33,807 bases of DNA, taken from contig PAVT01000024.1 in the NCBI GenBank assembly GCA_002713165.1, positions 1-33,807 of the forward strand, in the 5' to 3' direction. This stretch comes from Verrucomicrobiota bacterium. GTDB taxonomy: Bacteria > Bacteroidota > Bacteroidia > Flavobacteriales_E > Vicingaceae. This document shows positions 9,890-22,725 of this stretch, piece by piece; position 1 is the first letter of the stretch; each line of letters opens with the position of its first letter. The notes under the pieces were generated by a model. It did not search any database. It was not told the DNA's origin and saw only the letters and a list, made by a program, of their open reading frames with translations. A program made the translations under genes and the position numbers.

Positions 9890-10681
9890 TTAGGGAGCGT
9901 ATTTGCGTGCCTCTGGAATAAACGCTTTGATGTCGCTAATTCTTCTCTCGTCACTAGGGTGAGTACTCATAAATTCAGGTGGTGCTCCTCCCCCTTTGTT
10001 TTCAGACATGCGTTTCCAAAAATCTATGGCGGCTTCTGGATTGTAACCTGCCATGGTCATAAATACCAATCCCATTTTATCAGCTTCAGATTCATGCATG
10101 CGGGAGTATTTCAATATACCCAATTGAGAGCCAGCACCGACAGCAGACATCAATATATTTTTGGTCATTTCTGGTTTCTGTTCTAAAGCCATTGCTAAGC
10201 CCATACTTCCTAATTGAACAGGTATTTGTTGGCTCATGCGTTCGTTTCCATGACGCGCTACTGCATGAGCAATTTCATGACCCATCACTGTGGCAATTCC
10301 CTCTTCACCATCACATATCGGAAGTATGCCGGTATAAAACATAATTTTTCCACCGGGCATAGCCCAAGCATTGACTATGTTCTCATCGATCACATTGATC
10401 TCCCATTCAAACTCCTCTACTCTTTTCTTCTCTCCATTTTCTGTCAAATATTTATTTACAGAAGCGGATATTTTATTCCCTACTTTACGCACCAACTCAA
10501 CTCTTTTGTCATCGTCAGGTAAAATATTTCCTTCTTTCTTCACTTGATCATACTGATCAAAACTCATGCTTGACATTTGTGATGATGGAAACAGTTTTAA
10601 TTGTTTTCTTCCTGTAATTGGCACTTTCGCACAATGTGCAAATAATCCAATTATGCTTAGTACGATAATTATTTTTTTCAT
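9890..10681 (-). CDS. M48 family metallopeptidase, probable lipoprotein
   Basis: This 263-residue protease carries the zinc motif HEIAH (H135, E136, H139) and the downstream ligand motif ESEAD (E197 likely third ligand). The N-terminus MKKIIIVLSIIGLFAHC is a signal peptide ending at Cys17. The residue before it, His, is unusual for a lipobox. VPITGRKQLKLFP after the Cys is characteristic of Bacteroidota M48 lipoproteins. It lacks the TPR tail of BepA-like members. By family it would degrade or quality-control periplasmic or outer-membrane proteins. Its ATG overlaps the clpS stop in ATGA, so the two are translationally coupled, at the end of a gene run that includes two giant envelope proteins. 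Confidence 0.93.
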   Translation of the reverse strand: MKKIIIVLSIIGLFAHCAKVPITGRKQLKLFPSSQMSSMSFDQYDQVKKEGNILPDDDKRVELVRKVGNKISASVNKYLTENGEKKRVEEFEWEINVIDENIVNAWAMPGGKIMFYTGILPICDGEEGIATVMGHEIAHAVARHGNERMSQQIPVQLGSMGLAMALEQKPEMTKNILMSAVGAGSQLGILKYSRMHESEADKMGLVFMTMAGYNPEAAIDFWKRMSENKGGGAPPEFMSTHPSDERRISDIKAFIPEARKYAP

Positions 10682-10956: not shown

Positions 10957-13900
10957 TTATTTATTGTTTTTGATATTCGCAGCTTCGTTCAAACTAATGC
11001 GTTCACCATTATAGTATGCAACAACAAATGCATCTTTTATGTTTGGTTGAATGTTAATTTTTACTTCCGCTGCTGCTATTGCACTGCTATACTTACCAGT
11101 ATTGTAGCGGAATAAACCATTGCTCAACTGAACTACATGCATATCTTGATATTCAAATGTCCCAGAGGGCAATACTTTCGAATACACACCAACTTGAACA
11201 GTGAAAATTAATCCCTCAATGGTTTCTGTATTTACGACAGCCTGACTTCCAGCAAATCTAAATGCTTCCTTTAGACCGTCTTGACTTCCACCTGCCACTT
11301 TCGTAAGCTTTGGCACACTATTGATTTCAGATTTTGGTGGTGCCGCATTCGTTTGAAAGGCTTCAATTTCCTCAGGACTTGAATCCCCGCCACCAGAATT
11401 TCTCGCCTGGCTGATGGAAATGCGTTCACCATTCAAAAAGGCGACAACAAAAGCATCAGGATAACCCTTGGCTCGAATTTCATCTCTAGCTCTAACAGCT
11501 ACACCTTCACTTAAGAAAAAACCCGCCGTATAGCGTGTAATGCCTGAGTTTGTTTGTTCAGCCATCAAAGGTGCAAACCCTTTGAACAAATCTTGCGGAA
11601 TTGGATTTCTAAATGCTCCTATTTGTACTTTATAAATCAATCCTTCAGGCATCGGTGTATTCACAGGAATAGGTCTTGCATCACTGTAGGCTGACTGGTT
11701 TCTATCTAAACGTAAAAATATTGGACGATCTACGACTGTTGGTATCTTGTCTATTTTTTCTAAAGTCAAGGCTGGAAGCTCAGAAGCGCTTGGCTTAATC
11801 TCATTTGGCTCTGTTCGTGAATTATTGTCAGTTTGAAGTTGTCCTTCATTTAAATTTCTTTCTGTCGTATTATTTTCAATTTGTCTTTGGCCATCAGTTG
11901 TGATGGTAGATTCACTCGAATTAACATTCGGATAATCTTCTCCAGTGCCTCTTATTCCTGTATCTTCCCCTTCAGGACTTTCATTGAATTTCAACTCCGA
12001 TACTCCATCATCTGTTCTTTCATCTTCTATGGCGCTCTCTGAAAGAGGCACCTCCCCAATTTCTGTTTGATCACCTTCCAAAGACTGCAATTGTTCTATT
12101 GTCTCACTAGATTCTTGAGAGCTCAATATGTCCTCGCCCGCGATTAAACTATCTGAAGGAGTAAGGTCTACCCATTCAGCCAATATCGGGTCATTTTCAT
12201 ACTTACTGTAGGTAATTAAAAGGGCCTGTTTTTCTTCTTGTGGTATATTGGTAAGTGCATTTTTCTTTTTAGTCTCGTTTGCAGAAATTAGGTAGTTTTT
12301 GATCTTGACGATTGTTTCAATAGAGTCGATCTTAGATCTGGTACGCTGGGCATTTAATTCGATTACTTCTGCCGATTTAATGAGTCTTTCTTTCTCAGCC
12401 TCATCTTGGGTATTTTCGGCTTGAGTCCTTTGATTTTTGGCTTGTTTCTCCAATTGTATTTTTTCCTTCGTTAACTCAACCGCCTGCAAGTATTCTGTTT
12501 CTGCTTCTTTCAATAACTGCTTGTTCTGTTGATCGCTTTTAGCGTAAACACTGAAAGCAGCAGATTCAATAAGCAATCGTTCTTGCTCTTCAGAGACATT
12601 TACCGTATCAAGTTCGATCACTTGGGCATCAACTACTTTTCTAGGTTTTGTAATATTTGAGACCATCTGAGCCTGTCTAGCCTCCTCAATGACTTTTGCC
12701 TCTTTCAATTGTTGTTCTCGAAGATAAAAATTGCTTGCCTTTGTTTCTTTTTCTGACAGTTGTTGCTTCATTAATTCAACGCTGGCTATTACGCTGTCTC
12801 TTTGAGGCCCTACTTCCAATCCTTCCGCTGTCTCGCTTTGAACTTGTATTGCTGCTCTTAATTCTGTTAATTCTGCTTGTAAAGCATCTCCTTGCTGTTT
12901 GGCAGATTCAGGATTCGTCACAGCCATCACTTCCGCATCATTGATCTGCTGTGATTCAAATTGAGATGTGGCAGCTGAAGAATTACTCACATTTTGTGCT
13001 AAGGTGGCACGATTTACATATTCATCATCGACTATTTTAAGCACTTTCAATGCTTCTCGTTGTTTGTTCAAAGCCAACATTTCAAAATCATACGCCTTTT
13101 GAATATCTGTTTGTTTTCTAGAGAGACGATCATTGGGATCTATTGCTGCTCTTATCTCAGCAGCATTTTGAAAATACACTTCTGCCTCCTCTGCAAGAAG
13201 GTTGGCGATATCTAAATTGTTTGATTCAAATTCTTCATCATATTCTTTGGCATTGTTCAATCTATCTACATTCAATTGGTATTCTGTCTCATTATAATTC
13301 CGGAAATACTCAGCAGCCTCCAATTGTTTGGCTTCGGAAAGTCGTTCTAGTTCATTCGCTCGGTCAAAAGCGTTTTGCCTTTCTCCAATCGTTGGTAGGT
13401 TATATGCTGCCTGTCTTGCCTCTTCCGCTTGTGCAGAAATTCCGCTAGCTTGAAATAAACTTCTTTTTGCATTGAGTAAATCCGGACTGTCTGTTTGATT
13501 GCCCACATCGTAGGTCTGATCAAAGGTGAACTTAGAAAAGGAATCATCAATTACACTGAATTGATCAACCTCTGATATGTCTACCGGTTGAGCAATGCTC
13601 TTATCAAGTGAAGATTTAACATTTGTATTCTTGGATGAATTTTCCTTATCCACTTGGTTTTGCGTTATTCCACTCTGCTGTGCAAATTCATTGTTTAAGT
13701 CATCACGTACACCCTGTTTCTCGTTGATTTCTTCCAACAAAAGGTCCATTTCTTCTTGAAGTTGAGTACGTTCTTCGTTGGTTTGGGCTTGCGTAATGCC
13801 GTTCTCTTTTTGAACAAGCTTTTGCTGTAATCCATCAATCCATTGGTCGTACAATTGAATGCGCTGAGCATCTTGAACATCTGCATCGCCAATGTTTGCA

Positions 13901-16482
13901 ATGGATTCTAATTGATTCTCAAAATGAGTATTGATTTCTTCTCTCGTTGCTACTTCAGGATCAATGGATGCATTTGAAGGTTCTTGAACAATTTCATCAT
14001 TATCTACAGTGGATGAATTTAAATCTTCTGGCAAGCCTTTGACTTCAGAATATGCTATTAGCCCCTTGTCTTCATAAGATTTCAGGTCGGAAAGGATTTG
14101 AGCCTTTCTGTCATCACTGTATTGCTCAGACGTTGTTTTGTTCTGAATTTTGGTACTAATCTTATCATAGACTGACTTTTCTATCCCTAAATCTGCTACT
14201 TCTTCATTGGATTCTTCTATCGCTTCCTCATTTCGTTGCAATCTGTATTCTAAATCTTTTAGATCCAATTGTAACTCCTCTTCCTGGGTTTGCAATTCAA
14301 CTCTCTTCTGTCCACTTGCACTTTTAAGCTGCTCTCCAATTACATCCAATTGCTCAATCAATTGTTCCTTTTCAGCTTTAAATGCTGCTTCTTTGTCTAT
14401 AAGGTCCATCAATGCAGTATTCTTTGAAATGAAAGATTCTGCTACTTCATTTCTTCTTTGCTTAAAGAACACTGATTTTTGCGGGCTTACAGTTGATTTG
14501 TTCTCAACTTTGCTCAATAATGCATCTGCCAATTCCGATTGATTATTACTGAGAGCGTCTTCAATCTCATCAATTGTTTTTTGAACATCAGTTTTTGCTT
14601 GATTCCTGTTCTTTTCAACCTTATCTATGGCATTTCCTAATCTTGCAGCATATGCAGCCGCTAAAGCTGTTTCTTTAGCCTCCAGTAATTTTTCAGCAAT
14701 TTCAGTAGAATCTGAATTGGCACTCTTAAGTTGCTCATGCTGTGCAAAATGATCATCCGCTTCTTTCTTTAATTCTAAAGAGGTGTTAAATGCAATATCG
14801 CTGCTATTTTCTTGATCATCAATTGCGTTCCATTCATTTTTCAGGTCTACTAATCTTTCTCTAATTGCTGCGAGGGCACTTTCATCGATGCCTGAAGATT
14901 CGGTATTTTCAATAGCTTCATTGTCCTTATTTATTGAAGCGGTATTCTCAACATTGTTTTGAGATGAATTACCTTGAACATCATTGCTTACACCTCTCGC
15001 ATTCCCATTTGCCAATAATGAAGCCAATTTTTGGGGATCATAATTCACTTCTAGTTTTGCTTTTTCTCGTAACAATTGAGCAGATACTTGAGGTCCAGTG
15101 CCTTTCGAATTTGCTGCTGTCGTTCCATCAAATATGTTCTTAATGACAAGTGTTTCCTGCCCATCTTGTTCAACTAAACGTAGCTCTTGACCCAACACTT
15201 CAAATTCATCTTGATCAGGAATGGTAATGCTAGAAGTATGAATTGGAGCATCATCTGTCGTTTCCACTAAAAATTTATATGTCCCTCCTTTCTCGTTGAT
15301 TTCTATATTGTATTTGCCGTTTTCATCAGTATTGAATACCCCAACTGTTTCATTACTTACAGGATCAATCACAGTAATTTTTGCTGTTTTTAACTCCGGA
15401 TTATTTTCAGCTACAAACTTTCCTTTAATCACAGTAACAGCGGCTGGGGCCTTTTCTACAAGTACCTTATAAACAGTTATCTGACCACTCTCATTAGCGC
15501 GATTTGAAGCGAAGTATGCCAACACTTGATTTTCGTCTGTGATAAATAGGATATCATCATCGGCAGAACTAAAAGCGAAATCCATATTTTCAGGAGCTTT
15601 CCAACTGTTGGTTTGTTGATCGAAGGTGCTTTTAAATAAATCATATCCGCCCATACTGCTATGTCCCTTGGAGGCAAAAAAAAGCGTTCTTCCGTCAGGA
15701 TGTATAAATGGATAATCTTCATCATAAGGTGTGTTTACCCCGCTCCCTAGCGCAACACCCTCACTCCATTCGCCATTTCCAAGTTTTACTGATTTATAAA
15801 TGTCTTTTCCATTTTCCCCCTTTTTTCCAAAGGATGAATAATATACCTCTTTGGCATCGTTCGGTAAATAGATGACGGAGCGTTCATTTATTTTTTCATC
15901 ATATTTACTTCTAAAGTCAGCAGGTTTCGTGATTATTTTTCCATCAATTCCCTCCAAGTCATATATCCTAAAAAAGTTATCTGAATTGATCACTTGTCGA
16001 TCAAGCACTTGAACATCATTAAGTTTTGAAAGCAATTGATTGCCATTCTTGCACATTTCAATTTGCCGATCAACCATGTATTTCTTCATATTTTCTGAAG
16101 AAGCATTTCGTTTAAAACGACTGTAGGCTTTAACGGCTTTCGCAAAATAATAATTCAGGTGATACGCTCTTCCCAAATAATATTGGGCAAGATCATCTAC
16201 AGATCCTCTTTTTGTAATCGCAAATTGCAGGTATTTTAGTGGTTCTTCCTTATCAGAGGAAGATTCTAGCAGACAAGCGCCATATTTATAATTGTAATTT
16301 GGGTCTTTAGGATAAAGGCTTAAAAGCTGTGCAAACAATGGTTTAGCCTCAGCAAATTCATCCATTTCAAATAACTCATTTGCCTTCTTTTTTAACTCAT
16401 CTTCAGAAGATATGTTATCTTGTGCTTTTGCATAAGAACAGAAAAGCATTAAACAAATAAAGATGTATAGGGGTCTCTTCAT
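10957..16482 (-). CDS. Giant TPR / PD40 / coiled-coil / double-SPOR envelope protein
   Basis: This 1841-residue exported protein starts with signal peptide MKRPLYIFICLMLFCSYAKA. Next come TPR-like helices (about 28-130), a PD40 propeller segment (about 195-340; EVYYSSFGKKGENGKDIY, RTLFFASKGHSSMGGYDLF), and a carboxypeptidase-regulatory-like beta domain (about 355-420). Residues about 540-1480 are Glu/Gln/Lys/Ala-rich and strongly coiled-coil. After a polar Ser/Thr/Asn-rich linker, two SPOR-like domains close the protein (about 1610-1687 and 1757-1832). Each starts YKVQIGAF or FTVQVGVY and ends in DAFVVA...NGERIS. SPOR domains bind denuded peptidoglycan, so a long periplasmic tether or scaffold is a plausible inference. 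The gene lies 124 bp after the 1480-residue gene and 9 bp before clpS. The exact role is unknown. Confidence 0.85.
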   Translation of the reverse strand: MKRPLYIFICLMLFCSYAKAQDNISSEDELKKKANELFEMDEFAEAKPLFAQLLSLYPKDPNYNYKYGACLLESSSDKEEPLKYLQFAITKRGSVDDLAQYYLGRAYHLNYYFAKAVKAYSRFKRNASSENMKKYMVDRQIEMCKNGNQLLSKLNDVQVLDRQVINSDNFFRIYDLEGIDGKIITKPADFRSKYDEKINERSVIYLPNDAKEVYYSSFGKKGENGKDIYKSVKLGNGEWSEGVALGSGVNTPYDEDYPFIHPDGRTLFFASKGHSSMGGYDLFKSTFDQQTNSWKAPENMDFAFSSADDDILFITDENQVLAYFASNRANESGQITVYKVLVEKAPAAVTVIKGKFVAENNPELKTAKITVIDPVSNETVGVFNTDENGKYNIEINEKGGTYKFLVETTDDAPIHTSSITIPDQDEFEVLGQELRLVEQDGQETLVIKNIFDGTTAANSKGTGPQVSAQLLREKAKLEVNYDPQKLASLLANGNARGVSNDVQGNSSQNNVENTASINKDNEAIENTESSGIDESALAAIRERLVDLKNEWNAIDDQENSSDIAFNTSLELKKEADDHFAQHEQLKSANSDSTEIAEKLLEAKETALAAAYAARLGNAIDKVEKNRNQAKTDVQKTIDEIEDALSNNQSELADALLSKVENKSTVSPQKSVFFKQRRNEVAESFISKNTALMDLIDKEAAFKAEKEQLIEQLDVIGEQLKSASGQKRVELQTQEEELQLDLKDLEYRLQRNEEAIEESNEEVADLGIEKSVYDKISTKIQNKTTSEQYSDDRKAQILSDLKSYEDKGLIAYSEVKGLPEDLNSSTVDNDEIVQEPSNASIDPEVATREEINTHFENQLESIANIGDADVQDAQRIQLYDQWIDGLQQKLVQKENGITQAQTNEERTQLQEEMDLLLEEINEKQGVRDDLNNEFAQQSGITQNQVDKENSSKNTNVKSSLDKSIAQPVDISEVDQFSVIDDSFSKFTFDQTYDVGNQTDSPDLLNAKRSLFQASGISAQAEEARQAAYNLPTIGERQNAFDRANELERLSEAKQLEAAEYFRNYNETEYQLNVDRLNNAKEYDEEFESNNLDIANLLAEEAEVYFQNAAEIRAAIDPNDRLSRKQTDIQKAYDFEMLALNKQREALKVLKIVDDEYVNRATLAQNVSNSSAATSQFESQQINDAEVMAVTNPESAKQQGDALQAELTELRAAIQVQSETAEGLEVGPQRDSVIASVELMKQQLSEKETKASNFYLREQQLKEAKVIEEARQAQMVSNITKPRKVVDAQVIELDTVNVSEEQERLLIESAAFSVYAKSDQQNKQLLKEAETEYLQAVELTKEKIQLEKQAKNQRTQAENTQDEAEKERLIKSAEVIELNAQRTRSKIDSIETIVKIKNYLISANETKKKNALTNIPQEEKQALLITYSKYENDPILAEWVDLTPSDSLIAGEDILSSQESSETIEQLQSLEGDQTEIGEVPLSESAIEDERTDDGVSELKFNESPEGEDTGIRGTGEDYPNVNSSESTITTDGQRQIENNTTERNLNEGQLQTDNNSRTEPNEIKPSASELPALTLEKIDKIPTVVDRPIFLRLDRNQSAYSDARPIPVNTPMPEGLIYKVQIGAFRNPIPQDLFKGFAPLMAEQTNSGITRYTAGFFLSEGVAVRARDEIRAKGYPDAFVVAFLNGERISISQARNSGGGDSSPEEIEAFQTNAAPPKSEINSVPKLTKVAGGSQDGLKEAFRFAGSQAVVNTETIEGLIFTVQVGVYSKVLPSGTFEYQDMHVVQLSNGLFRYNTGKYSSAIAAAEVKINIQPNIKDAFVVAYYNGERISLNEAANIKNNK

Positions 16483-16606: not shown

Positions 16607-19600
16607 TTATAAATCACTCTGCATTTCTCTATCAAAATCTCTCTTCTCTTTTTCAACACCAAACATATAGGTGAAAGGTTCTTCTCCTTTCGCATTTTGA
16701 TATTTACGGTCACTTCGTTTCATCTCCTTAATTTTGGTATTAAATTCTTCATTCGAAGAAATTACTTTCATCAATCCACGTCTGTAATTAAAATAATACC
16801 AATTATTTGCGTCCATTTTTAGGAGGACATCAACAACATCTCCACTTCTCTTCTTACTTATCATTACACCACCCTCTACGTATTTATTAACCTGTTCTTT
16901 GTTAAAATTGGTAATCCCTATTTTCCCGAAAGACTTAAACGCTTCTATATCTTCATTCCACCTCATTTTTAATTCACTCAAAACCATTATTTTATCTAGT
17001 TCGTCAGGCAAACGTTTTATTTTGCCATTCAAGCTCAATTGTGAGATTATTTCATCTGCCTCTTCCTGTCCAACAATTTCACGCAATCCCTTTTCGTAAG
17101 AAGGTTTACTGAAATCAAAGCCTTGAAGGTTTATATTTTCATTAAAATCATCTGCCATTCGTTTGATCAAACTCTTTTCGAAAAAGAAGTCAATGGCCAT
17201 CATAACGTCCAATACGGCTGTGTTGTCCTTTAATGTGTGCGCAATGCTACCCGCGGCATCGAATTTCACGTTTCCAGTGCGGGCTCCCATGTCTATCAAT
17301 CCTTCTCCATACACCTTGCAATTATTGACATCAAGACTTAAATAATTGCCTGGAAGGGTGTTTTCCGCAATTTTTTCCTTGCTTGAAATGCGGTATTCTT
17401 TTGCATTCTCATTATAATTGACAAATCCGTAAGCTGGCAGCAATTTCACATCACTGTAATTCGTGCGTGGAGAGAGAAAGGCAGAATAAAAAAAGATGGA
17501 ATCGACATTCATGCTTATACTCGATGATAGAAATGCATCATTTCTATCTTTTAAATTGGTATCAACTGGAATAAAAATTTTATCTGGATCAATTTCAGCT
17601 TCAAATTTTATCCAAGGACGTGGTATACTTTCACAATTATGATTGATCTGTGTCGCGCCATCAAAGACTAAATTCTCTTTGCTTCCATAAAGTTTCACCC
17701 CTCCTTCAAATGCAAATTGAGGACTTAGTGTAAAGGTGACCGTGTCAGAAATATCGCCCACTCCAATGGTTTGTCCTGTTGTGTCTACACTGATGGAATG
17801 TAAATAGATCGTTTGTTTATTTTGCGCTTGATCGATATAATCTATATTTCCAGCAGACGTATAATTTTTTCTGCCAAAAATGTTTGTGTTTGCGTTGTAC
17901 ACTGTATGAAATTCAGTAACACTGTTAGCCACAATTTTAGAATCAACCAAGGGATCCATCTTCGCTTTCTTTTTAATCGTTACTAAGCCACTATCAGGAT
18001 AGACTTTAGCATCTGCAGAATTGATAAAAAGGACATCTCTTGCTTTAATGACGTGCCTTCTTGAATCATACCTTGCCAAGGGTGAATAGAAAAACAAGCT
18101 GTCTTGATCTGGATGCGTAGAAATAAATTTTGACCCTTCTAATTTCACATCCGCTGCAATGCTTCTGGAGGAGGAACTGCTTAAATCAATGGCGCCATTA
18201 TCCATGTACCATTTAAACTCCTCCATAAAGCAGAGGTATTGATTGATCGGAAACTCAATAGGTTCGGCTCTTCCATTGGCTTTGAATTTAGCAAATCGAC
18301 CTTTGTAGTCGACATGTGCATTTACGTCTTTTGTTTTTAGGGCAAATCCGCTTGTGTTTTCATCCTTTAATTGAAAATCTGCAGTGTCGGCATCAAAGAC
18401 AATTTCTTTAAAGACAAACTGATTTGACATAAGATCTGCTCGCTCAAAATGATAGGTTCCATCTCCTATCATTTGCGAAGGGGTATATGTAGTAGTTCCT
18501 TCAAAATTGGCCTTGTTGTCATACATGATCATACCTGATGATTGGGTGGTTGCGTACATTTCGTCCTCTCTTGGCAGCCACTTCATCTTCGTTCCTTCTG
18601 CTTTCACAGGAGGATATTGAATACCCCCTCCTTGTTTCTCAACAAAATACTGATCAGCAGTAGTTTGCATTGAATCTGGAAAAAATATAAAATCCTTCGA
18701 GTAGGTAGTTGAAGTGATGTACTTCAATTCACCATCCCCACGGAGTCCATTGTGGCTGAGTCGAATTTCGTTGGTAAACACTCCTTTGCCTCCATACATA
18801 GGGTAGCCATTTGGAGGTGTTTTACGTTTAAATCCTAATGAAAAATCTTCCTGTAATCTTAATGTTTCTCTAAACTCCGGAAAAATATTCGCTGAAGTAA
18901 AGGTTCCATCAAAAGCCAGTTGCTCATTAGAGAAATTGTCTAAACTATCAATGGTAAATGGATCTACTTGAAAGTAAAAATTGTCTTTTTTATATACCCC
19001 GTTTAAAATCTCTTTGCTGTTGTAAAACACATAACTCTGGTCAACACTATTAAATATAGGGTATTGAGGGAAGTCTTTCAATCCTGACTTGTTTGAGAAA
19101 TGATCAATTAGCAAGTCTCCTTTAACATCTTGGATCACTGTTTTCACAGGTTTCAACACTGGCCTGCCTTCTCTGTCCTCTTCCCCACTTTCTGCTTTGA
19201 TGCTCAATGAGTCCACATTGATCAAATCAATTTTAAAATTGTTGTAATCAAACTTGAATTCTTTTCCATAAAAATCAAATCGTCCCGCTTTCACCGTTCC
19301 TCCAAATTCAAAATTCCTGTCTTTTTTCATCTTGATCTGACCAGCTGATGGAAGTATAACCACCTTCTGGGAATCACTTAATACAATGCCACGAATGCCG
19401 TTGATGGAAAGGTCATAATTCAACAGATTTATCTTCGCGTTGGCGCTTCCTTCGATGTTTGAATAAATATTGATCACATCATAATCGACCTTTTTGGCTG
19501 CAGCATCCACATAGTCGAATAATTTTTGCTTCACAGTAAAGGTTCCTTCATCAAAATCAAAATCCAAAAAGCCCATGGTGCTGAAGCGTATGATTAAGTT

Positions 19601-21049
19601 CTGAGCTGCCGAGGGTGAAATGTTCATGAAATGCGTCATATGTTGAACATCTAATTTTCTTTGCTCATATTTATCTACCATTTTGCGAATGGTATATAAG
19701 GGATTAACGTCTGCCATTCCACCAATCTGGAAATACAATTCTTCTTTAAAGTAATCTTTGGAGGTAAATCGCGCGTCTGTTTTTGTTCCTCCCAATAGGT
19801 TAGTTAGTGTAATGATGGGTTCATCGGTTTTCCAATTGAGAACCTCAAAATCCATGTCAATGTTGTGGTAAGAATTGGTGTAAGGGGTTATCGCCACACC
19901 TTCATTTGCTTTATATAATGTAACTAACTTATCTGGAACTAAATATTTAAAATCGAGGCCTGGGTGGGTAATAGAGTCTTGTTCAAAATAGATGCTAATC
20001 GATGCTTTAGTTGATATAATACGGTCGGTGCGAATAGAGAAACTTTCAGAAGCTGCCTTCAAAAACAAGGTATCTCCACTAATAAACTCAATAAATGCAT
20101 CTTGTTTTTCATTACCTCTTCCTAACAATTTAGCTCCCACCATAGAAAACCCTCCATCAAAATTGACGTTTGGGGAAATGTTTTCAATCCGAATACGCTT
20201 ATTGTAAGAGTCAAAACGAGGATAAGTAGATTTCTCTGCCTTTACATTCGCGAGAATTTTATCCGTCAGGGTACCTTTTAATGGTCGATTCAGGTAGAAA
20301 GAATTGTAAAAATTAACAGAGTCTGCAGTGTAACTGTAAGTTCTTGTCTCTAATTCATAGCTGGATAGCTCAGCATATACTTCATCGGCCAAAAGACCTG
20401 CCTTTTGCCAATTCACCGTACCTCCTTCGCCTTTCCATACTCCTATCGTAGGATAATACACCCCTTTGGTGTTCCATATCTTCATACTGTCGCGTTTTGC
20501 GAAACAGATCAAATCCAATTGATCAAAAGTGATTTTTGGCAGGCTATCATATCCAAATTTATAATCCTTGTTACTCGAGCCCCATGTTGTTGAAGCAGAC
20601 TTATAAATGGCATTGTCAACAAACAATGAATTGCAGAAGTCTAAAAACTCAGTGAAATCTCTTTTTTTACGTTGATCTAGTAACTTTAGAATAATACTTT
20701 GCCATTCCTGATAACTTTCTTTTGTTTGATTTGGATCTGTCACAAAACTACCCACAGTAAAGAGGTAATTTCTAAAGTCAGGAAATGCCCTAAATTTTTT
20801 CTTGAGCATAATGTTGCTCACATTGTAAACACCTTTTCTTTGATCTTCGGTAAAGTAGCCACCGTACCAAACCTTTTCAAATTCTTTCATGAAAGGTTTC
20901 CCTTCCTTTCGTGCCTCCTCAAGAAAGGTTCTCATCGTCTCAAAATAAGCAATTGAATCCGTCGGAAACTCTTTCAGTCGTTGAGCTTGAGAAAGATTTG
21001 CAAAGAAAAGCAGTGCAACTAGAAATACAGGAACTAAAAACTTATGCAT
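16607..21049 (-). CDS. Giant exported beta-rich protein of unknown function (1480 aa)
   Basis: I do not recognise a named family. A signal peptide is clear (MHKFLVPVFLVALLFFANLS, then QAQ). The first ~200 residues are mixed helical (FLEEARKEGKPFMKEFEKVW). From about 230 to 1330 the protein is a long series of short beta strands with recurring phrases such as 'F.G..', 'FDG' and 'L.AD..' (VNFDGGFSMVGAKLLGRG, FEFGGTVKAGRFDFYGKEF, LAFDGTFTSANIFPEF, FAFEGGVKLYGS). This suggests a repetitive beta-helix or beta-taco fold like those of AsmA/LptA-type lipid-handling proteins, though that likeness is only structural impression. The C-terminus is helical and charged. No T9SS tail, lipobox or membrane anchor is seen, so periplasmic or peripheral outer-membrane placement is likely. 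It follows prmA by 72 bp. Confidence 0.7.
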   Translation of the reverse strand: MHKFLVPVFLVALLFFANLSQAQRLKEFPTDSIAYFETMRTFLEEARKEGKPFMKEFEKVWYGGYFTEDQRKGVYNVSNIMLKKKFRAFPDFRNYLFTVGSFVTDPNQTKESYQEWQSIILKLLDQRKKRDFTEFLDFCNSLFVDNAIYKSASTTWGSSNKDYKFGYDSLPKITFDQLDLICFAKRDSMKIWNTKGVYYPTIGVWKGEGGTVNWQKAGLLADEVYAELSSYELETRTYSYTADSVNFYNSFYLNRPLKGTLTDKILANVKAEKSTYPRFDSYNKRIRIENISPNVNFDGGFSMVGAKLLGRGNEKQDAFIEFISGDTLFLKAASESFSIRTDRIISTKASISIYFEQDSITHPGLDFKYLVPDKLVTLYKANEGVAITPYTNSYHNIDMDFEVLNWKTDEPIITLTNLLGGTKTDARFTSKDYFKEELYFQIGGMADVNPLYTIRKMVDKYEQRKLDVQHMTHFMNISPSAAQNLIIRFSTMGFLDFDFDEGTFTVKQKLFDYVDAAAKKVDYDVINIYSNIEGSANAKINLLNYDLSINGIRGIVLSDSQKVVILPSAGQIKMKKDRNFEFGGTVKAGRFDFYGKEFKFDYNNFKIDLINVDSLSIKAESGEEDREGRPVLKPVKTVIQDVKGDLLIDHFSNKSGLKDFPQYPIFNSVDQSYVFYNSKEILNGVYKKDNFYFQVDPFTIDSLDNFSNEQLAFDGTFTSANIFPEFRETLRLQEDFSLGFKRKTPPNGYPMYGGKGVFTNEIRLSHNGLRGDGELKYITSTTYSKDFIFFPDSMQTTADQYFVEKQGGGIQYPPVKAEGTKMKWLPREDEMYATTQSSGMIMYDNKANFEGTTTYTPSQMIGDGTYHFERADLMSNQFVFKEIVFDADTADFQLKDENTSGFALKTKDVNAHVDYKGRFAKFKANGRAEPIEFPINQYLCFMEEFKWYMDNGAIDLSSSSSRSIAADVKLEGSKFISTHPDQDSLFFYSPLARYDSRRHVIKARDVLFINSADAKVYPDSGLVTIKKKAKMDPLVDSKIVANSVTEFHTVYNANTNIFGRKNYTSAGNIDYIDQAQNKQTIYLHSISVDTTGQTIGVGDISDTVTFTLSPQFAFEGGVKLYGSKENLVFDGATQINHNCESIPRPWIKFEAEIDPDKIFIPVDTNLKDRNDAFLSSSISMNVDSIFFYSAFLSPRTNYSDVKLLPAYGFVNYNENAKEYRISSKEKIAENTLPGNYLSLDVNNCKVYGEGLIDMGARTGNVKFDAAGSIAHTLKDNTAVLDVMMAIDFFFEKSLIKRMADDFNENINLQGFDFSKPSYEKGLREIVGQEEADEIISQLSLNGKIKRLPDELDKIMVLSELKMRWNEDIEAFKSFGKIGITNFNKEQVNKYVEGGVMISKKRSGDVVDVLLKMDANNWYYFNYRRGLMKVISSNEEFNTKIKEMKRSDRKYQNAKGEEPFTYMFGVEKEKRDFDREMQSDL

Positions 21050-21121: not shown

Positions 21122-21970
21122 TTAGAATCCAACAATCTTTAAAAAGGATTTTGCCATCCAATTTTCTGTGCTTAGCGCATTGCCTTCAAGACATTGTTGA
21201 TTGATCTCATCCATCGAATTCAACTCTTTTTCATCCTCAGGCAAGAATCCACTCAATATTAGTAGACCTTGCTTGTTTAAGAATTTTAAATATTCGGGAA
21301 CATCGGCCATCAATACGTTTTTATTGATGTTCGCCAAAACTATGTCGTACTGAAGATTCACCAATCTGAGAAAAGAAACATCTCCTTGGTGAACATTGAC
21401 CTTTGCATTATTTCTAGTGATGTTTTCTAAAATATTTTCAAAAGCCCAATCATCAATGTCAACAGCATCAACCCATTCAGCGCCCATCTTATTTGCCAAG
21501 ATGCTCAAGACACCGGTGCCACTTCCCATATCAAGCACTTTTTTATTCTTGAAATCAATCGAACGCATTAAGCGAATCATCAATTGCGTCGTATCATGGT
21601 GGCCTGTCCCAAACGACATTTTGGGTTCGATGTTCAGAGTGTATTCAAATCCATCTTTTTGTTGATGAAAAGGAGCCGTAATTTGACAAAATTTATCAAT
21701 GTAAATGGGTTCGTAATTTGACTCCCATTCCTTGTTCCAATTACGGTTCTCAAGCCGAAGTACAGTAAATTCATAGTCCTTCAAAAAAGAAATTGATTGA
21801 TGAAAAGCTGACCAATCCTTCTCATGAAAAATTTCCTCCGAAATAAAAGCATTTAAATGCGTTTCTTCTTCTTCGAAACTATCAAAGCCATAATTACTTA
21901 AAAGTGCAACAAGTATGTCTGTTTCCCCTTCTTTTCCAACGAGGGTATGTCGAATATTGAAGTATCTCAT
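21122..21970 (-). CDS. prmA: Ribosomal protein L11 methyltransferase
   Basis: PrmA is the SAM-dependent enzyme that trimethylates ribosomal protein L11. The SAM-binding core is plain: LDMGSGTGVLSILANKMG, the acidic strand AVDIDDWA, and YDIVLANINKNVL, which carries the N-I/P-N type catalytic loop. The upstream NIEPKMSFGTGHHDTTQLM is the PrmA family signature. The N-terminal ~110 residues form the substrate-recognition domain. I start at the ATG at 21970 (282 aa); the TTG one codon earlier would only add a Met. That ATG shares one base with the tpiA stop (TGATG), so translation is coupled to tpiA. Confidence 0.96.
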   Translation of the reverse strand: MRYFNIRHTLVGKEGETDILVALLSNYGFDSFEEEETHLNAFISEEIFHEKDWSAFHQSISFLKDYEFTVLRLENRNWNKEWESNYEPIYIDKFCQITAPFHQQKDGFEYTLNIEPKMSFGTGHHDTTQLMIRLMRSIDFKNKKVLDMGSGTGVLSILANKMGAEWVDAVDIDDWAFENILENITRNNAKVNVHQGDVSFLRLVNLQYDIVLANINKNVLMADVPEYLKFLNKQGLLILSGFLPEDEKELNSMDEINQQCLEGNALSTENWMAKSFLKIVGF

Positions 21971-22725
21971 CAATCAATAGCAGATATAATGTATGCGAAG
22001 TCTTCAGCATTTAAGGAGGCTCCTCCAATTAACCCCCCATCAACATCTTTTTGACTGAATAATTCTTTGGCATTTTTTGGATTGCAGCTCCCGCCATACA
22101 GGAGTGATGTATTTTGGGCAATCTCATTGCCAAATTTGTCCTGCAATAGACTTCTGATGTAAGCATGCATTTCTTGCGCCTGTGCTGATGATGCGGTTTT
22201 CCCGGTACCAATGGCCCATACTGGTTCGTAAGCCACAACTGTATTTTCGACCTGTGCATTGCTCTTCTCAAACAACACACTCAATTGTTGTTTGATCAGT
22301 TCAAAGTGGCTTCCGTTTTCCCTATGTTCCAAGTGCTCTCCTAAACAATAAATGGGGCGTATACCAGCATGATAAAGTGCATCTAATTTCTTGGAAAGCA
22401 CCTCGTGATTTTCATGATTATAAGTTCTTCGTTCTGAATGGCCAACCAAGCAAAAGTTTACATTTAGAGAGGCCAACATAGTTGCAGACACCTCTCCGGT
22501 AAAGGCACCGCTCTCCATAGGATGATTGTTCTGGGCACCAATTTTTATTTCAGATTCTTGCAGCAAATCAATTAAAGTGCTCAGGTGAATGAACGATGGA
22601 AATAGAATTACTTCTATAGCATCATTGATTACGATATCCTTTTTCAATAGGTCTTGGACAAGGGTTTCTCCTTGATGTATGTCTAAATTCATCTTCCAAT
22701 TCCCTGCTACAATTTTCTTTCTCAT
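21970..22725 (-). CDS. tpiA: Triosephosphate isomerase
   Basis: TIM interconverts dihydroxyacetone phosphate and glyceraldehyde 3-phosphate in glycolysis. The 251-residue length is standard. All catalytic landmarks are present: GNWKMN with the electrophilic Lys near the N-terminus, VGHSERR with the catalytic His, YEPVWAIGTGKTAS with the base Glu and the mobile loop, and the phosphate-binding LYGGSCNPKN and DGGLIGGASL. The start is an ATG 6 bp after the OppB-type permease stop, and the gene runs into prmA with a 1-base overlap, so it lies inside a tight operon. Confidence 0.98.
   Translation of the reverse strand: MRKKIVAGNWKMNLDIHQGETLVQDLLKKDIVINDAIEVILFPSFIHLSTLIDLLQESEIKIGAQNNHPMESGAFTGEVSATMLASLNVNFCLVGHSERRTYNHENHEVLSKKLDALYHAGIRPIYCLGEHLEHRENGSHFELIKQQLSVLFEKSNAQVENTVVAYEPVWAIGTGKTASSAQAQEMHAYIRSLLQDKFGNEIAQNTSLLYGGSCNPKNAKELFSQKDVDGGLIGGASLNAEDFAYIISAID

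Follow-up and report, generated by a model that had tools for sequence, protein, structure and literature searches.

The gene described here lies in a stretch of 33,807 nucleotides from a Verrucomicrobiota bacterium (placed by GTDB in the Bacteroidota, family Vicingaceae; assembly GCA_002713165.1, contig PAVT01000024.1, our C24), which we call the window. At 16607..21049 on the minus strand, as are all parts of the gene given below, an open reading frame of 1480 codons plus stop encodes an exported protein with predicted beta-jellyroll stretches like those of the Lpt proteins. The assembly (1.77 Mb, 66.7% complete) contains a single copy. An original prediction, made from the sequence alone, had proposed an exported protein of unrecognised family with long repetitive beta architecture; its observation was confirmed in part, and its interpretation was supported in part. 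The protein itself is genuine, since full-length relatives of at least 1461 amino acids and down to 23% identity are far beyond chance. No publication on the family was found by title or abstract opening.

The N-terminus carries a signal peptide at residues 1-22 (20984..21049), with cleavage before Q23 placed by eye from sequence patterns and the alignment. With simple patterns, the hydrophobic N-terminal region was found in all 29 distinct sequences, the window protein included, and a cleavage-like site follows it in 21 of them, while a lipobox-like motif is present in none. Neither Pfam nor NCBIfam matched a C-terminal sorting domain of the type IX secretion system (T9SS) in the 1480-residue protein. 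Thus, the signal peptide and the absence of a lipobox and a T9SS tail had all been read correctly beforehand. Beyond the signal, no 19-residue segment of the window protein exceeds 1.6 on the Kyte-Doolittle scale, so that after the signal-peptide-like start there is no second hydrophobic segment and an inner-membrane anchor of the LptC type is absent. Since signal, missing lipobox and missing second segment all fit a periplasmic place, the protein is probably located in the periplasm. Dependence on T9SS is not suggested, and T9SS was rejected as the deciding correlate of the gene, because sprA is found in 20/20 genomes that carry the gene (carriers) and in 19/20 that do not (non-carriers). At the other end of the chain, 23 of the 29 members finish without Phe, Trp or Tyr. 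Several distant members (L004, L007, L008, L009, L010 and L062, the last from Hymenobacter) have Lys-rich, mostly Lys/Glu-rich C-terminal tails that finish in or near DGF, EGF or DPF.

AlphaFold2 models were built for residues 24-900 and 560-1480 from alignments of 15 and 16 sequences, all taken from the window and its related loci; their predicted local distance difference test scores (pLDDT) are 77.8 and 76.9 and their predicted template modelling scores (pTM) 0.51 and 0.54. In the overlap of the two separate runs, secondary structure is the same at 300 of 341 positions, and at 255 of 265 for residues 580-844. The models place six helices at residues ~32-146 (20612..20956), beta structure from residue 147, a winged helix at 434-519 (19493..19750), further beta structure at 521-1290, helices at 1292-1341 (17027..17176) and a last beta segment at 1355-1431 (16757..16987). 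Strands account for 57% of residues 147-433 and 54% of residues 521-1290, with 24 and 62 strands of at least three residues, about 86 altogether, which bears out the long beta architecture that had been proposed. The N-terminal helical domain and the winged helix had both been missed in the original prediction.

We compared the models with known structures using VIA-align 2, which reports Z scores, and Foldseek. Among the VIA-align 2 matches listed for the C-terminal model, LptA, LptC and LptD take all of the first 22 places (Z 7.7-12.4), counting 4q35, titled merely “membrane protein”, which we take to be LptD; the next match has Z 6.8. Identity of these 22 chains to the model is just 5-12%. 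The clearest stretch, residues 883-1032 (17954..18403), resembles LptC 6mjp_C (Z 12.4, root-mean-square deviation (rmsd) 2.5, 130 residues aligned) and LptA 2r1a_G (Z 10.6), and the modelled N-domain of LptD (9a39) aligns as far as residue 1097 with Z 10.4. Two further jellyroll-like stretches are found at residues 753-872 (18434..18793; LptA 2r1a_E, Z 8.8, rmsd 3.5, 114 aligned) and at residues 155-289 (20183..20587; LptC 3my2, Z 9.1, rmsd 3.7, 120 aligned). In the N-terminal model, LptC, LptA and LptD make up 7 of the best 50 matches, most of the others being winged helices. Foldseek likewise ranked an LptD chain highest for the C-terminal model (4q35_A, E 2.6e-4, probability 0.87) and gave LptA chains probabilities of 0.99-1.00, with template modelling (TM) scores by target of 0.55-0.67. 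It superposed no LptD barrel on this model, the TM score by query being 0.08-0.13 for LptD chains. A fold with Lpt-type jellyrolls is therefore moderately supported by the predicted models, and the kinship to Lpt is predicted to be one of fold, by either remote homology or convergence. The earlier guess of a lipid-groove-type fold thus gains support through LptA, LptC and LptD; as to the beta-taco fold named with it, TamB is not among the structural matches listed, nor are adhesins, and such an absence proves nothing and excludes nothing.

The insert at residues 434-519 has the fold of MarR, MntR and the N-domain of Rio2 in the model, the best matches being Rio2 1zar (Z 9.6, rmsd 2.6, 82 aligned) and MntR 2hyg (Z 9.4, rmsd 2.3, 71 aligned), although pLDDT here is merely ~50-86 by blocks of ten residues. 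Unlike in the MarR and MntR regulators, this winged helix sits inside an exported protein, between jellyroll stretches. Since DNA binding is implausible in such a protein, it may instead serve in docking.

By sequence, the protein resembles no known family. In scans of the window protein against Pfam and NCBIfam nothing passed a family cut-off, and the OstA, LptC and LptD families gave no match. A single-query search of PDB sequences gave no match of value (best E 0.81), and a 20-row profile retrieved none at E<=10. Over 20 members, 13 Pfam families appear at E<=1, with TamB and AsmA families in none of the members. Six of the 13 are winged-helix or helix-turn-helix families, each in one to three of the 20 members (best E 0.0057), whose position is known for the window protein only. 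The strongest single match is RNase_P-MRP_p29, found in three members with a best E of 0.00012 (for the window protein, residues 548-600 with E 0.15, under the cut-off); we attribute it to the chance resemblance of a small beta fold. The earlier statement that the protein has no known domain therefore stands for Pfam, NCBIfam and PDB sequences and fails for the predicted fold. Comparison of 45 pairs of slices with hhalign revealed an internal repeat between residues ~535-580 (19310..19447) and 989-1031 (17957..18085) with probability 80, the best pair apart from mere overlapping slices; comparison of the whole family profile with itself detected no repeat. The repeat fits a chain of repeated modules.

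Composition bears out only part of the recurrent Gly/Phe/Asp motifs that had been noted. Phe (7.7% versus 5.1% in the other window proteins) and Asp (7.8% versus 5.4%) are enriched, Gly barely so (6.2% versus 5.7%). Among seven short patterns, picked after reading the sequence and tested against shuffles, D[ST][LIV] was the only one clearly above expectation (9 versus 2.5, a count reached by 2 of 500 shuffles), whereas [FYI].[FYI].[FYI] fell below the shuffle mean. Taken as a whole, the short motifs are not conclusive.

The gene is common near its own lineage and sparse elsewhere. All 33 genomes of a sample of the order, limited to genomes at least 90% complete, carry it, as do 57 of 60 near relatives and 11 of 296 genomes sampled across the phylum, where single-sequence and profile searches agree; each count includes the genome of the window. 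Of the three near relatives that lack it, one belongs to the same family and is 87% complete, whereas the other two are complete genomes from outside that family. Acidiluteibacter ferrifornacis (Cryomorphaceae), Vicingaceae and Hymenobacter busanensis (Cytophagales) are among the carriers. Distances between the proteins track those between PrmA proteins (rho 0.695 over 26 loci, the maximum of 999 permutations being 0.531); for TpiA, rho was 0.505 over 18 loci and not above the permutation maximum of 0.526. Neighbouring genes were compared in 36 loci, an initial 16 and 20 more picked from carriers. In 27 of them, the Hymenobacter locus included, prmA lies directly upstream of the gene, as it does in the window (21122..21973, minus strand). 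Among the nine others, locus L061 starts within the gene and L076 lies near a contig end. With prmA so often conserved upstream, the gene appears to be of long standing and to have been lost repeatedly; most simply, it would have descended vertically and disappeared from many lineages.

Another neighbour, plsY, is the directly next gene in 10 of the 36 loci; the four of these that were scanned are all PF02660, and L084, L087 and L094 have plsY without prmA. It is present in 6 of 16 carriers and in 7 of 20 non-carriers, a difference within chance. Among these seven non-carrier loci, prmA, plsY and an M48 gene stand together in L144 and L147, plsY and M48 in L142, L145 and L148, and neither arrangement is seen in L143 and L146. 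We therefore rejected plsY as a specific lipid link, since the cluster also stands without the gene. The order prmA-plsY-M48, kept in L144 and L147 in the absence of the gene, makes the neighbourhood itself look old. In the window, positions 9890-10681 encode an M48 metalloprotease in which a lipobox can be recognised by eye and which is partly similar to BepA and LoiP, under their cut-offs; the M48 protein of the gene's cluster scores 103.4 bits against BepA in NCBIfam, where the cut-off is 570. At 6-1619, the window encodes a protein that, by eye, seems to be of the PD40 type, with a part like OmpA and a C-terminal domain like DUF1573.

The 1841-residue protein encoded next to the gene (10957..16482, minus strand) was assigned from Pfam, NCBIfam and locus comparison as a giant TPR-PD40-SPOR protein. 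Its TPR and PD40 parts resemble PorE/CHU_0125 (a partial NCBIfam match, far under the cut-off), and the C-terminus matches SPOR weakly (E 0.0058, under the cut-off) and has, by eye, a second SPOR-like copy in place of an OmpA domain. Its orthologues reach 2344 amino acids. Counting open frames of at least 1700 amino acids among the matches listed as clear orthologues, 23 of 44 carriers have the giant, four are ambiguous with shorter frames (G348, G339, G334 and G340) and 17 have none; in these 17, searches with the C-terminal part of the giant gave nothing better than weak matches of SPOR size, in frames of up to 1150 amino acids, again among the matches listed. None of 20 non-carriers has an orthologue or a long giant-like frame, G029, G041 and G053 showing SPOR-sized matches in frames of up to 743 amino acids (best E 2.5e-23, in G041). 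The giant is thus nested within the carriers and does not strictly co-occur with the gene, which leaves little of the proposal that the two giant envelope genes act together. It is not an obligate partner, being unneeded for the core role, and may have joined in lineages near that of the window.

Known systems for moving lipids were sought in 13 carriers and 11 non-carriers, 24 genomes altogether. TamB, whose full matches have open frames of 1416-2457 amino acids, and LptD_2 are present in every one and OstA_2 in 23, the sole gap being the incomplete assembly of the window. Replacement of TamB, LptA or LptD by the 1480-residue protein was rejected, as these families coexist in carriers and non-carriers alike; the protein is therefore an extra. 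Like LptA, LptC and the N-domain of LptD, it is exported and has a predicted beta-jellyroll-like fold, here in three stretches (Z 9.1, 8.8 and 12.4). Unlike them, it joins a helical domain and a winged helix to several such stretches within a single chain of 1480 residues and has no significant sequence similarity to their families. It lacks the inner-membrane anchor of LptC, and no barrel as in LptD was seen among its structural matches. With TamB and AsmA-like proteins it shares size and extended beta architecture, but it lacks the inner-membrane anchor and the domain of TamB. In an excerpt of PMC12045153, AsmA-like proteins are described as beta-taco tubes, and TamL and TamB are reported to be essential in F. 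johnsoniae and C. canimorsus.

Fold, export signal and missing anchor together fit best a soluble periplasmic lipid slide or chaperone. We therefore favour, at a probability of roughly 0.42, a soluble protein of the periplasm, from a new family, that would combine several Lpt-type beta-jellyroll modules in one chain and work in this way, much as LptA or the jellyrolls of LptD do. Its predicted grooves, possibly continuous, would cover the acyl chains of an amphipathic molecule of the envelope on its way through the periplasm; candidate cargoes are a phospholipid, another lipid of the phylum or a lipopolysaccharide intermediate. The helical and winged-helix parts would dock the protein to partners. 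With a strand spacing of 4.8 Å, some 86 strands in two stacked sheets could extend over about 20 nm and so perhaps span the periplasm. Our confidence in the fold of this new family is moderate, and in its function as a jellyroll lipid slide lower. More doubtful still is the idea that Bacteroidota possess, apart from Lpt, TAM and Mla, a conduit between the membranes that is dedicated to lipids and made of one chain, with tandem Lpt-type jellyrolls and with a winged helix and a helical domain in the periplasm as its docking parts; such a conduit would be ancient in the phylum and would have disappeared from many of its lineages.

Several results weigh against a lipid slide. The pTM of both models is moderate, and best Z scores of 7-8 are common in VIA-align 2 for models with no clear match, so that the values of 9.1 and 8.8 are weaker evidence than 12.4. 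Between the three matched stretches the predicted fold is tentative. In Foldseek, a teneurin-like protein comes second for the C-terminal model and an apoptosome chain first for the N-terminal one (probability 0.13), and TM scores to LptD chains are 0.07-0.16; the fold claim therefore covers separate modules and not the whole chain. Profiles made from these genomes, with TamB rows that are pieces of 946-1071 amino acids, gave hhalign probabilities of 1.9, 0.3 and 0.4 for OstA_2, LptD_2 and TamB, against 2.4 for M48 as an unrelated control, although the raw score of OstA_2 was the highest of 11 profiles (30.1 versus 28.6). Hydrophobicity alternates modestly along the strands (mean z 0.67, above 1 in 18 of 47), which is not conclusive. 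Outer-membrane barrel proteins often have Phe as their last residue, and with six of the 29 members ending in Phe a barrel-like end is conceivable, though in five of the six this Phe closes a charged tail. Furthermore, LptD, OstA_2 and TamB are already present, and no lipid-specific gene link survives, since plsY stands beside prmA also where the gene is missing.

Among the alternatives to a lipid slide, the one that survives best, possible though rather less probable, is a periplasmic scaffold or chaperone for an outer-membrane protein or for complexes of the LptD type, in which the jellyrolls would pair edge-to-edge with LptA or LptD while protein partners would be held by the winged helix and the helical domain, with no lipid carried. 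Lpt jellyrolls indeed join one another by edge pairing, the two extra domains may well be docking-type modules, and the BepA-like M48 protein (103.4 bits, cut-off 570) belongs to the same cluster. However, M48 adjoins plsY in five of the seven plsY-bearing non-carriers, so this link is unspecific, and a protein client finds no support in the present results. Long beta proteins are often structural, and the low identity to the 22 leading Lpt chains would also suit an elongated spacer or adhesin whose beta modules merely resemble Lpt jellyrolls. We regard this as unlikely, because the missing lipobox (0/29) and T9SS sorting domain leave no known surface route and, for the C-terminal model, Lpt proteins score well above other beta folds. 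Very unlikely is one functional unit with the giant neighbour, such as a peptidoglycan-anchored bridge: at most one gene separates the two in 16 of the 36 loci and long giant-like frames are missing from the 20 non-carriers, but the 17 carriers without it among the matches listed imply that the core function does not depend on it, and the two genes lie on separate contigs in G045, G342, G345, G337 and G349. Least probable of all is a diverged member of the AsmA-like/TamB lipid-transfer group beyond the reach of sequence searches, to which the TamB-like length and long beta structure would point, but against which stand the lack of TamB or AsmA Pfam matches in 20 members, the signal-peptide-like N-terminus, the presence of TamB itself in all 24 genomes and LptA, LptC and LptD at the head of the structural matches, where TamB's absence is no proof.

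How lipids pass across the periplasm of Bacteroidota is largely open. Our analysis adds to this question a concrete gene with a predicted fold, carried by every genome in one order sample and by few others of the phylum. Finding a winged helix inside an exported beta protein is unusual in its own right. If the protein is indeed a lipid slide, it would be a so far unstudied lipid carrier linking the two membranes in some Bacteroidota.

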